Below, in pieces: positions 15,490 to 18,324 of a DNA stretch of 64,000 bases. The notes under the pieces are model-generated. The model was given only the letters and a program-made list of their open reading frames with translations. It was not told where the DNA came from and ran no database searches. The stretch lies in assembly GCF_001192835.1 (NCBI RefSeq), contig NZ_DF968182.1, positions 2,389,113 to 2,453,112 on the forward strand, written 5' to 3'. The stretch comes from Lentimicrobium saccharophilum (GTDB lineage: Bacteria; Bacteroidota; Bacteroidia; Bacteroidales; Lentimicrobiaceae). Position numbers and translations under genes: made by a program. How positions within the stretch are numbered: position 1 is the stretch's first letter; each line of letters starts with the position of its first letter.

Positions 15490-16169
15490 ACAACAGCGAA
15501 ACCATACTGATTATTGACGATGAATTGCAGATCAGACGACTGCTCGAAATCACCCTGTCTGCCAGCGGGTACCACATCATTGTTTCAGCAACAGGTAAGG
15601 AAGGTTTGGTAGATGCGGCAACCCATCATCCATCACTGATCCTGCTTGATCTGGGTTTGCCCGACATTGATGGTCAACTGCTGCTGAAAAAACTCCGGGA
15701 ATGGTATGCCAAACCGGTGATTGTATTATCAGTGCGCAATTCGGAAACGGATATCATCCAGGCGCTCGACAATGGCGCTAACGACTACCTGACCAAGCCC
15801 TTCAGAACCGGAGAACTGCTGGCACGGATCAGGGCAGCAGCTAGGGCTGCCCAAAGCCTACCCGACTCCGCAGTGGTTGAAACCGATTCGCTTAGCATTG
15901 ACATGGCCAGTCATATCGTACGCAAAAACGGGGAAATCCTGAAACTTACCGCCACGGAATTCTCCCTGCTCTCCCTTCTGGCCAAAAACAGCGGACGCGT
16001 ACTTACCCATCAGTATATTCTTAAAGAAGTCTGGGGTCACGGGTATACCGGTCAAACCCAATATCTGCGCGTGTTTGTGGCACAACTTAGAAAAAAGATT
16101 GAAGACAACCCCGCCAGGCCGGCCTTGCTGATCACAGAATCGGGCATCGGATACCGCTTCGGGGAGTGA
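15486..16169 (+). CDS. KdpE-like winged-helix response regulator
   Basis: A 227-residue OmpR/KdpE-type regulator. The receiver domain has the acidic pocket IIDDE near the start, the phosphoacceptor Asp55 in LLDLGLPD, and the Lys in YLTKPF. The C-terminal DNA-binding domain shows the trans-activation winged-helix pattern with ATEFSLLSLLA and GYRFGE at the end. It is translationally coupled to the kinase through an ATGA overlap. In the Kdp system the regulator activates kdpFABC; here the adjacent target is trkH, so the regulon may differ. Confidence 0.92.
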   Translation: MNNSETILIIDDELQIRRLLEITLSASGYHIIVSATGKEGLVDAATHHPSLILLDLGLPDIDGQLLLKKLREWYAKPVIVLSVRNSETDIIQALDNGANDYLTKPFRTGELLARIRAAARAAQSLPDSAVVETDSLSIDMASHIVRKNGEILKLTATEFSLLSLLAKNSGRVLTHQYILKEVWGHGYTGQTQYLRVFVAQLRKKIEDNPARPALLITESGIGYRFGE

Positions 16170-16514
16170 ATTCCTCCGAGTGATTAACTTTTTTTTGATT
16201 TGTTGTATTCTTATCCGGCAATATCCATCAATCCAAATTACTGATTCTCTTAAATTTAAATATTTCCATCAGGAATGCTTATTAGAGCAACGAGACATTC
16301 TTATATCCAAACTGATGACAATATTACCATACATTGTGGAGATAAGAATATTACAACACCTGTTACAGATTTTTCTTCCCAATATCCTTAAGCGGGCGAA
16401 ACATTGCACGGATTACAAAGGTTCCGGCAAACTGCCTCAGGCTGAAACATCCGGGCCAGTATGTATTTATTCGTGTCCCTAAGGCGATCGGAATCGTGGC
16501 TTTTTCTGTTAACC

Positions 16515-16616
16515 TCAGGGGTATTTCTTCCGCATATATTCCACCGTCGACTGAATCAGCCTGATCAGGACATCCTGCCTGTTGTCAGCCAGCTTTTTGA
16601 CATAAAAATACAGGTT
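16515..16616 (-). pseudogene. DUF1801 C-terminal fragment, copy 1
   Basis: Translating this segment on the minus strand gives about 33 residues matching the end of the intact DUF1801 protein at 17511-17933 (YVKKLAD.RQDVLIRLIQS.VEYMRKKYP then stop). The rest of the gene is missing. It lies 394 bp from copy 2 and is nearly identical to it, so the two fragments come from a recent tandem duplication. Both differ from the intact gene by conservative changes, so they derive from a diverged relative. Confidence 0.7.
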
Positions 16617-16641
16617 TACTTTCACAGTTCAGAATCAGAAT

Positions 16642-16894
16642 GCCACGAATGCACGAATGGAGTTTTTGCTGAGTAACAATCAAAGGACAACTCTCTTATG
16701 ATTTAACCTGGACTCACCAAAGTTCAACAGCAATGCCATTTATTACCTGACACGATCAAGTCGGATTCATGCTCAATGGTTGTTATTACCATCCATGCAA
16801 ATTCTTATCAACCTGTAACTTTCTTCCTTATACAGGATATCACTCATAATGGCTGTTCTTTAGGAAGATTACAAATTATTCGTGTATTCGTGGC
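16642..16894 (-). mobile_element. Deleted copy of the IR-bounded GxxExxY cassette
   Basis: The left arm GCCACGAATGCACGAAT (16642-16658) and the right arm ATTCGTGTATTCGTGGC (16878-16894) form a 17-bp inverted repeat with one mismatch. Inside, the segment from about 16675 matches the 3' end of the intact GxxExxY gene at 17074, and the segment around 16790-16855 matches its 5' end. About 200 bp of the middle are missing, so this is a decayed copy of the 17036-17496 element. No functional product is expected. Confidence 0.6.
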
Positions 16895-16908
16895 TTTCTC
16901 TTTTACCC

Positions 16909-17011
16909 TCAGGGGTATTTCTTCCGCATATATTCCACCGTCGACTGAATCAGCCTGATCAGGACATCCTGCCTGATGTCAGCCAGCTTTTTGACATAAA
17001 AATACAGGTTT
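16909..17011 (-). pseudogene. DUF1801 C-terminal fragment, copy 2
   Basis: A second copy of the DUF1801 tail, offset by exactly 394 bp from copy 1. On the minus strand it reads as a C-terminal fragment with the same LIRLIQSTVEYMRKKYP ending, then stop. It is directly followed by a 25-bp unrelated stretch and the left arm of the intact GxxExxY cassette. Not translated as a functional protein. Confidence 0.7.
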
Positions 17012-17035
17012 ACTTTCACATTTCAGAATCAGGAA

Positions 17036-17496
17036 GCCACGAATGCACGAATGGAGTTTTTGCTGAGTAACAATCAAAGGACAACTCTCTTATAATTTAG
17101 CCTGGACTCACCAAAGTTCACCAGCAATGCCAGTTTATTTCCTGATACTTTCAAATAATTGATGGACTGGGCAACAAATTCTTCCCTGATTGTAGATACG
17201 CTTTTTACTTCTAAAATAATCTTATCAAACACAACAAAGTCAGCATAGAAATTGTGAGGAAGAATAATGCTTTTGTATTTCACATCATATCTCTTTTCTC
17301 TTTCAAAGGGAATACCTGCTTTGACAAATTCATATTCCAATGCATCCTTATATACAATTTCCAGAAATCCTGCACCCAGATTGTTATGCACATCCATGCA
17401 AATTCTTATTAACCTGTAGCTTTCCTCTTTAAAAATTATATCACTCATACAAACTAAATTTTATCAAAAAATACATGATATTCGTGCATTCGTGGC
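17036..17496 (-). mobile_element. GxxExxY cassette flanked by perfect 17-bp inverted repeats
   Basis: GCCACGAATGCACGAAT at 17036-17052 and its exact reverse complement ATTCGTGCATTCGTGGC at 17480-17496 bracket the 375-bp GxxExxY gene, giving a 461-bp unit. A deleted copy of the same unit lies 394 bp away at its left end. The boundary repeats, a second copy and a nuclease-like gene inside suggest a small mobile or mobilised cassette, but no target-site duplication or transposase is visible, so mobility is inferred. Confidence 0.5.
17074..17448 (-). CDS. GxxExxY family protein (PD-(D/E)XK nuclease-like)
   Basis: A 124-residue protein with the family-naming motif GFLEIVY (G-x-x-E-x-x-Y) near residue 34. 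A later ADFVVFD...ILEVKS segment fits the D...ExK core of the PD-(D/E)XK nuclease fold. The function of the family is unknown; such proteins are abundant in Bacteroidota and other environmental bacteria. It lies inside perfect 17-bp inverted repeats and next to a decayed copy. Because of this context it may be cargo or a component of a small selfish cassette rather than a housekeeping gene. Confidence 0.85.
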   Translation of the reverse strand: MSDIIFKEESYRLIRICMDVHNNLGAGFLEIVYKDALEYEFVKAGIPFEREKRYDVKYKSIILPHNFYADFVVFDKIILEVKSVSTIREEFVAQSINYLKVSGNKLALLVNFGESRLNYKRVVL

Positions 17497-17510
17497 TTTT
17501 TCTCTCAACT

Positions 17511-17933
17511 TCAAGAGTATTTCTTACGCAGGTAATCCACCGATGACTGAATCAGCCTGATCAGGACATCCTGCCTGATGTCAGCCAGCTTTTTAACATA
17601 TATACAGGCTTTGCCCATCTTGTACTTACCCAGCTCTTTCAGCATTTCATCCTGACCCGGAGCGCCCGCGTAAACATACAATGAAATGGCTGCTTTACGC
17701 GGCGAAAACCCTGCCAGCGGCCAGTCGCCCTCCTGCCGGCTTCTTTCCGATTTGTAATGATAACTGCCAAACCCGATGATGGAAGGCCCCCACATAACAG
17801 GTTGATAACCGGTGATTTCCTCCATCAGCTTCAGCAATGTAAAGCTGTCAGCAATTTTTTGTTCTGTATTTGCAAATGTCCGGATAAATTCATGTACGTC
17901 CGTGTCAACCGGCCTGGTTTTGATTTCTGCCAT
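17511..17933 (-). CDS. DUF1801 domain protein
   Basis: A 140-residue protein of the DUF1801 (YdhG-like) family. Visible features are the N-terminal helix region, WGPSIIGFGSYHY, and a C-terminal Lys/Arg-rich helix (RLIQSSVDYLRKKYS). The biochemical function is not established. It is intact, whereas two nearby C-terminal fragments of related genes (16515-16616 and 16909-17011) are decayed. It is followed on the minus strand by the GxxExxY cassette, 14 bp past its stop codon. Confidence 0.87.
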   Translation of the reverse strand: MAEIKTRPVDTDVHEFIRTFANTEQKIADSFTLLKLMEEITGYQPVMWGPSIIGFGSYHYKSERSRQEGDWPLAGFSPRKAAISLYVYAGAPGQDEMLKELGKYKMGKACIYVKKLADIRQDVLIRLIQSSVDYLRKKYS

Positions 17934-17970
17934 ATGCTGATTTTTAATATTTTATACTGAATTTCTGAAT

Positions 17971-18324
17971 TTATTTCCGTAAAATTTTCTCCATAGGCCT
18001 GCCTTTGGCCAGTTCGTCCACCATCTTGTCGAGATAGCGGATCTGCTGCATCAGCTTGTCCCCGATTTCTTCCACCCGGATGCCGCAAACAACTCCGGTA
18101 ATTTTGGATGCATCAGGATTGATCCGCGGCGCACCTGAAAAGAAATGCTCAAAGTCAGTCTGATTGTCAAGCTGTTGTTGCAGGGCTTGTGCATTATATC
18201 CGGTCAGCCAGCAGATGATCTGGTCCACTTCGGCCCTGCTGCGCCCTTTCTTCTCCGCTTTCGCAATGTAAAATGGATATACCTGAGAAAAAGGCATCCT
18301 GAAGATTTTTGTATTTGCGTTCAT
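17971..18324 (-). CDS. DUF2200 family protein
   Basis: A 117-residue protein whose pattern ([20 protein letters not shown]...[12 protein letters not shown]) matches the DUF2200 family, small bacterial proteins of unknown function. The length is typical. It is in the same minus-strand block as DUF1801, 37 bp upstream of it, and may be co-transcribed. No catalytic residue is known for the family. Confidence 0.85.

Follow-up and report, generated by a model that had tools for sequence, protein, structure and literature searches.

A GxxExxY nuclease gene flanked by inverted short-word arrays: a possible minimal mobile element

The GxxExxY locus and its predicted nuclease

The window analysed here is a 64,000-nucleotide stretch of Lentimicrobium saccharophilum contig NZ_DF968182.1. 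Next to a DUF1801 gene, it carries a short unit in which a 124-residue ORF is the sole gene, with no transposase gene inside (Table 1). The encoded protein matches TIGR04256 at 131.7 bits (cut-off 35) and PF13366 at 119.1 bits (cut-off 22), and these matches above cut-off bear out the GxxExxY, PD-(D/E)XK nuclease-like identity that an earlier note on this DNA had given to it. As that note also described, the gene lies between 17-bp inverted repeats: the two copies of GCCACGAATGCACGAAT form an exact pair, which extends to 19 perfect base pairs (17034-17052 and 17480-17498). Allowing up to three mismatches, four matches to GCCACGAATGCACGAAT were found where 0.25 were expected, and 0 of 100 shuffles reached four, placing the arrangement beyond chance. 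The second copy, said to have one mismatch in its ends and to have lost its middle, does retain both ends and lack its interior. A feature missed in that account is the triplication of the last ~125 bp of the DUF1801 gene, with 134-nt copies at 17467-17600 and at the two further tail positions of Table 1. Read through its three tails, the array runs tail-W-gene-W'-tail-W-deleted copy-W'-tail. No Rfam family was detected at window positions 15800-18200.

Table 1. Positions of the features at the GxxExxY locus of the window
Feature	Position	Strand	Basis
GxxExxY gene, 124 aa, predicted PD-(D/E)XK nuclease with residues E38, D70, E80 and K82	17074..17448	-	profile matches and alignment invariants
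Terminal word pair 5' of the gene, GCCACGAATGCACGAAT, exact	17480..17496	-	motif search
Terminal word pair 3' of the gene, inverted copy	17036..17052	+	motif search
Deleted sister copy, both ends kept (16878-16894, -, one mismatch; 16642-16658, +, exact), middle of the gene gone	16642..16894	-	repeat and motif search
Closing stretch of the DUF1801 gene plus the first half word; single in the G004 empty site, repeated in the window	17490..17614	-	125-bp BLAST overlap on L298, alignment
DUF1801 tail, second copy	16865..16998	-	repeat family D2
DUF1801 tail, third copy	16471..16604	-	repeat family D2
Interrupted word pair (GCCACGA...CACGAAT, small insert inside); similar one in the empty site	16469..16500	-	
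DUF1801 gene beside the insertion point	17511..17933	-	PF08818, 40.8 bits

The same neighbourhood is found in a relative (G004, locus L298) with a single DUF1801 tail and without the GxxExxY gene. By BLAST, window positions 18600-17490 and 16619-15401 are adjacent on L298 and overlap there by 125 bp, a segment that corresponds to the tail. This empty site holds an interrupted word pair, GCCACGA...CACCAAT, resembling the one in the window; the latter, previously proposed as a possible degraded third end of the element, therefore probably belongs to the old site and not to a third end. The word at the G004 site was either pre-existing or left behind. Within the interrupted pairs of both genomes (L298:2600-2670 in the relative) lies a small TCCCGA/TCGGGA-type insert, and a similar palindrome adjoins the words of another locus, L066.

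Another relative, G013, carries one intact gene and four tails, together with two copies that have lost their interior much as the deleted copy of the window has. Recombination between direct word copies is sufficient to explain the tandem growth of the window array; it does not cover the first duplication of the tail. Like the window gene, 46 of 141 GxxExxY loci have long direct repeats to either side, as do 6 of 24 four-helix loci, against 0/26 and 0/22 in the other control loci; in most of the six examples viewed, these repeats are tandem word-hairpin arrays.

Residues Y33, E38 and E80 do not vary among 66 aligned GxxExxY sequences; conservation at G27, E30, D70 and K82 is at least 90%. The fold was predicted with a pLDDT of 96.6, and a fold search gave Cas4 SSO0001 (E 3.4e-4, TM 0.60 by query length), LHK-Exo and RecE as the best solved matches; searching solved structures by sequence returned no match to the window protein. 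Together, the conserved residues and the fold match indicate that the PD-(D/E)XK active site is present and intact, and the protein is predicted to be a Cas4/RecE-like nuclease. In the open-licence PMC literature, we found no function for GxxExxY, a name that appears there only as a passing annotation, and no mention of 'PDDEXK_3' or 'TIGR04256'.

Words beside GxxExxY genes

Eighty relatives of the window gene were found by protein alone, so their selection was independent of their flanks. We scored word pairs as CRCNNA[AGT] occurring twice at 7-11 bp within 200 bp of the gene. With this grammar, which was derived from loci largely the same as those tested (the 18 of 18 hotspot inserts described below being a later test), word pairs were found at 77 of 79 close relatives (L085 was dropped). 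The phylum-wide set gave 27 of 29, and the set drawn from the genome of the window, its genus and its order gave only 19 of 35; both sets consist of best-match loci and not of all matches. Inverted pairs stand on both sides of the gene at 60, 20 and 8 loci of the three sets, respectively. Far flanks scored 8% for the close relatives, 11% for the phylum and 6% for the genome, genus and order, and shuffles scored 3-14%. In three other families (30 loci each before those with short flanks were dropped), word pairs occurred near 3 of 24 four-helix, 3 of 26 DUF1801 and 1 of 22 RhuM genes, with no two-sided inverted pair in any of them. We rejected chance as the source of the words from the shuffle and control counts, and a general feature of accessory genes from the DUF1801 and RhuM controls. 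The words are thus linked to GxxExxY genes well beyond the window, as the earlier note had asked of its repeats.

A motif family defined after viewing the flanks of the 80 relatives lies within 400 bp of the gene in 76 of them when one mismatch is allowed and in 71 when none is, and on both sides of the gene in 69 and 58, respectively. Motif density falls from 8.9/kb beside the gene to 0.03-0.12/kb at 1.5-3 kb. Misses in the word-pair test include a divergent clade of seven loci (L006, L071-L076; about 77-90 bits), which have no word repeats, and L002, L061, L063, L064, L069 and L077, which by eye seem to carry words of a different shape. Several members of the divergent clade adjoin an NDP-sugar gene (by eye), and the clade is possibly a domesticated form of GxxExxY.

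Across the passing loci, successive word positions are C, A (81%) or G (19%), C, G/A/T, A (70%) or G (27%), A, and T (66%) or G (29%). Words of other subfamilies include CACAGAG, CACAAAG, CGCAAAG, CGCTAAG, CACTAAG, CACATAG and more. At 194 tips, a C precedes the outermost word in 76% and a G stands one place further out in 64%. The median unit is 497 bp (77 two-ended loci). A fixed short target duplication was not found in any sizeable share of these 77 loci, searched in the 60 bp outside at lengths of 2-12 and 8 offsets: at most 4% of loci exceeded shuffles, the maximum being 6-7 bp at offset 3, and a 2-bp match outside the ends arises from the GC tip itself.

The two ends of a locus share their word at 96% of 95 loci, against 34% after shuffling (maximum 44%), and the word also matches the protein. 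We mapped words onto a FastTree phylogeny of 148 proteins, 124 of them word-labelled (L136 and L077 left out). The last letter changes 6 times on this tree, compared with a mean of 35.5 and a least value of 29 in 200 shuffles. The whole word changes 49 times (shuffled least 69), the spacing class 13 times (least 30), the fourth letter 25 times (least 44) and the fifth 16 times (least 25); the second letter, A or G, hardly clusters (16 changes; shuffled mean 19.7, least 16). Co-inheritance, with the parts travelling together, could alone be sufficient for this agreement.

Empty and filled sites

Empty sites were found in relatives at three loci, namely the window's own, a second in the genus of G140 and a hotspot in the genus of G061. 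Neither of the adverse outcomes named in the earlier note, repeats unlinked to other GxxExxY genes or an intergenic motif with no empty sites, occurred. At the second locus, both flanks are present in all eight genomes. Three are empty (G105, G109 and G159), with two genes 11-12 bp apart and no words in the gap. In G140, G094, G066 and G158, the gap is filled by an insert of 435-528 bp that begins with ACCACAGAGGGCACAAAG straight after the stop codon and ends in words of the CTTTGTG...(T/C)TGTGGTT type. The 346-bp insert of G078 has no intact gene (by eye) and has kept ACCACAGAG...CTCTGTGGTT.

The hotspot is the gap between genes identified by eye as map and a methyltransferase gene, and its flanks are contiguous in 29 of the 61 genomes sampled. 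We examined 11 of these 29 and 29 of the 32 non-contiguous genomes (G173, G193 and G214 left out). Among the 29 inserts, 18 hold a GxxExxY ORF (ATG start, at least 80 aa, with the motif) and word pairs at both ends. Six lack such an ORF but show words at one end or at both (L372, L373, L378, L380, L387, L391), and five have neither words nor ORF (L371, L388, L392, L397, L398). With empty sites at all three loci, the package is an insertion, present or absent between genes. No words occur in the gaps of the 11 empty sites examined, which measure -3 to 44 bp. In the 18 inserts, the outermost word pair is 0-55 bp away from the insert edge, and the words therefore do not always mark the precise boundary of the element.

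These gaps bear on the proposal that many genes merely fall into a widespread intergenic motif. Of the 34 exact motif copies in the window's genome, 31 are not beside a GxxExxY gene, most copies being intergenic and far from one, and only one of the six GxxExxY genes there has the exact window motif; both counts are caveats on the unit as first proposed. Against the proposal, the three other gene families seldom have words nearby (1/22 to 3/24), and the gaps of the 11 hotspot empty sites and of G105, G109 and G159 contain none. The proposal is largely contradicted by these empty sites, the interrupted word of G004 at the window's site being an ambiguous case, and we give it almost no credence.

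Two GxxExxY subfamilies occupy the hotspot gap, with a mean identity of 74-75% within and 37% between them. Words ending in G form the majority in 8 of 8 inserts of one subfamily and words ending in T in 10 of 10 of the other (Fisher 2.3e-5, genomes treated as independent); exceptions are single words inside L383 and L394 and a few words ending in A. As the site and host genus are the same, the class of word goes with the protein and not with the site. When the flanks are placed on a tree, three states (empty and the two subfamilies) require 13 changes (shuffled mean 16, least 12), the tree having many weak branches and two flagged long-branch joins, with ten 'other' rows uncounted and L398 skipped. 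Counting its starred branches only, a minimum of 3 (GHSE) and 4 (GLLE) changes is required. Occupancy of the hotspot is thus scattered over the tree and has turned over repeatedly.

A conserved site by a rarA-like gene (by eye) carries the insertion in four genomes (L133, L139, L147 and L152). Here, GCCACAGATGCACAGAT shares bases with the TAG stop codon of the upstream gene in three genomes and differs by one base in L133; the upstream word is exact in 3/4 and the downstream word in 3/4, with changed spacers. Words that stay nearly constant while spacers differ would suit operators, with the nuclease or a partner binding the words to control its own expression in toxin-antitoxin style and mobility being ordinary gain and loss. 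We find this improbable, given that the words flank the gene on both sides with inverted polarity and near the insertion edges, that the unit has no partner gene and that the gene-less remnants L378 and L391 retain words.

Candidate mechanism, dispersed words and known systems

The package looks like a very small mobile element of a previously unrecognised kind. The mini-mobile unit with terminal repeats proposed earlier stands as far as insertion polymorphism and end linkage go; that the nuclease binds the words, cuts there and mobilises itself is what we infer. Our confidence is evenly balanced on a minimal one-gene insertion element whose nuclease acts at its own end words and, with host repair, drives its spread. 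The unit is mostly about 460-580 bp long, with the gene for a predicted Cas4/RecE-like PD-(D/E)XK nuclease as its only gene. At each end, a 7-bp word, C-R-C-D-R-A-K, is repeated, usually 2-4 times, at a spacing of 8-11 bp; the two arrays are inverted and mostly tipped on the outside by G/A-C-C-R-C. Nuclease subfamilies differ in their word, to which each nuclease would bind and at which it would cut or nick the DNA. Host repair or recombination may then copy the cassette to a new gap, or amplify cassettes and words in place, of which the window's tandem array may be an example. On this reading, the element enters short intergenic gaps, is lost again and decays to gene-less word remnants. The PD-(D/E)XK nuclease fold is not known to move DNA alone.

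A wider claim, in which our confidence falls a little short of even, is that these units form a new class of mobile element found across several bacterial phyla: a single Cas4-like nuclease of 125 residues would mobilise each unit through words that its subfamily has evolved for itself, and would also feed gene-less hairpins. If so, a large proportion of the intergenic repeats of the 'CACAGAG / CACGAAT' type in such genomes would be the element's offspring, giving an origin for much intergenic repeat DNA in Bacteroidota-type genomes. A very common gene without an assigned role would likewise be the engine of an element smaller than most insertion sequences. The pairing of word and protein offers a direct route to studying nuclease specificity.

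Distant GxxExxY relatives were found in eight plasmid records, of which six were examined (H6 and H8 left out), four of these six being from other phyla. One of the six passes the formal word-pair test (L311, Gemmatirosa); L309, L310, L312 and L313 show words by eye only, and L314 shows none of the CRC type by eye. The annotation of the Sphingomonas parapaucimobilis record places the gene between fabD and fabG, and CGCGAAG-like words stand before it and, inverted, at its end, and by eye CACGGAT or CGCGGAT words accompany it in Treponema, a Fusobacteria record and Gemmatirosa. As only Gemmatirosa passes the formal test, spread over phyla is a lead and not a test. The window protein had no match in a phage collection, and a pattern scan of a viral collection gave 135 hits, none of which was confirmed.

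Within the phylum, GxxExxY genes occur in 59 of 118 sampled genomes. We searched all 118 for CCACDRAKN{1,3}CACDRAK, a count that pools words at genes with all others, and found a median of 6 word pairs in genomes with the gene (n=59) and 1 in those without (n=59). Word-pair and gene counts correlate with a rho of 0.69, against 0.18 for a reversed-pattern control. At least four pairs were found in 39/59 genomes with the gene and in 5/59 without a detected gene (27 in G147 and 12 in G085), and fewer than four in 20/59 carriers. The window motif with one free base occurs in 9 of 41 relatives (reversed control 0/41). Three regions of the window's genome (C1:656000-668000, 701000-716000 and 2723000-2733500; L037, L038 and L045) contain direct-oriented intergenic arrays of the motif without GxxExxY genes; L037 has a RhuM match among its copies, and in L045 a four-helix match is close to them.

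Two sets of dispersed copies look like passengers of ordinary elements. In G011, twelve loci (L162-L172, L175) hold copies of a ~700-bp element, 80-97% identical, that carries the GxxExxY gene or part of it as a passenger; six contigs end inside it. Its GGG ends lie outside the words and are accompanied by 8-bp target duplications (by eye; exact in L163 and L172), so we rejected it as proof of word-driven movement. The five gene-less copies of ~320 bp in G143 (L330-L333, L336) are 83-99% identical; inverted repeats of ~23 bp at their outer ends enclose a word hairpin, and in one copy the interior is flipped; these other outer repeats led us to reject the hairpins as word-driven MITEs. Both sets, like the tandem arrays of the window, which fit unequal crossing-over between direct copies, speak for GxxExxY as a passenger in general: it would act in repair or defence, other transposases or homologous recombination would carry the unit, and the words would be regulatory or recombination sequence. 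We regard this as unlikely, and as deserving real weight. At two multi-filled sites, the inserts of about 435-590 bp around a 124-138-aa gene would not accommodate a transposase and have word pairs at or within 55 bp of their edges, and at one shared site the words differ with the nuclease subfamily.

Searches of open-licence PMC papers for one-gene nuclease cassettes with word ends brought up no comparable system. Insertion sequences and MITEs have defined ends, empty sites and decayed gene-less copies. GxxExxY units share these traits, yet have neither a DDE or HUH transposase nor a regular short target duplication. PD-(D/E)XK homing endonucleases are encoded by small genes that return to the same site, which recalls the recurrent occupation of the hotspot gap; one of them, I-Bth0305I, appeared at rank 25 of the fold search (E 0.09). 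The GxxExxY unit differs in having word-array ends and many different sites, with no intron or intein. In the REP/RAYT (TnpA-REP) 'REPtrons' and REPINs, as PMC6006769 describes them, inverted short repeats flank a nuclease gene, gene-less repeats are dispersed, and repeat type goes with enzyme type. Here too, the GxxExxY gene lies between inverted repeats and motif copies are dispersed in the same genome. RAYT, however, is an HUH single-strand transposase acting with GTAG-type guides and hairpins, whereas the window gene is PDDEXK_3 only and the ends are tandem CRCDRAK words; a GTAG-type foot is absent, the tip of the arrays being mostly G/A-C-C-R-C.

A second likeness is to the rRNA intervening sequence with an S23/four-helix ORF, a 428-nt element with terminal inverted repeats that is called selfish in PMC4990558. 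It is a small ORF-bearing element with terminal inverted repeats, as is the GxxExxY unit. Intervening sequences, in contrast, lie in 23S rRNA genes and are excised from the RNA by RNase III; GxxExxY units lie between protein genes, and the window unit is not in rRNA and its ORF is not of the S23 family. The layout thus resembles both systems, yet fails the defining features of each. An RNA-level unit of this type, whose ends would pair in the transcript and loop out the gene so that insertion in an operon is tolerated, would fit the inverted ends, the position of 18/18 hotspot ORFs on one strand (by eye that of the flanking genes) and the similar layout of TIGR02436, a family known from rRNA intervening sequences. 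Selected RNA pairing would produce an excess of G-U-compatible end mismatches; compatible and incompatible mismatches number 47 and 45 (p 0.92, 91 loci), with no wobble bias, so RNA pairing is not favoured. We hold such a unit to be very improbable.

The TIGR02436 four-helix (S23/IVP) genes (L207-L236) themselves often lie between inverted arrays of short words, with arrays at 20/24 loci by word count and an inverted-repeat score in 67%. CRC-type words are rare there (3/24, against 77/79 for GxxExxY), and the words vary from gene to gene (TTTGAATC, GTTATGAG, AGCCAGT...). These genes, so far known from rRNA intervening sequences, are possibly a second family of one-gene cassettes.
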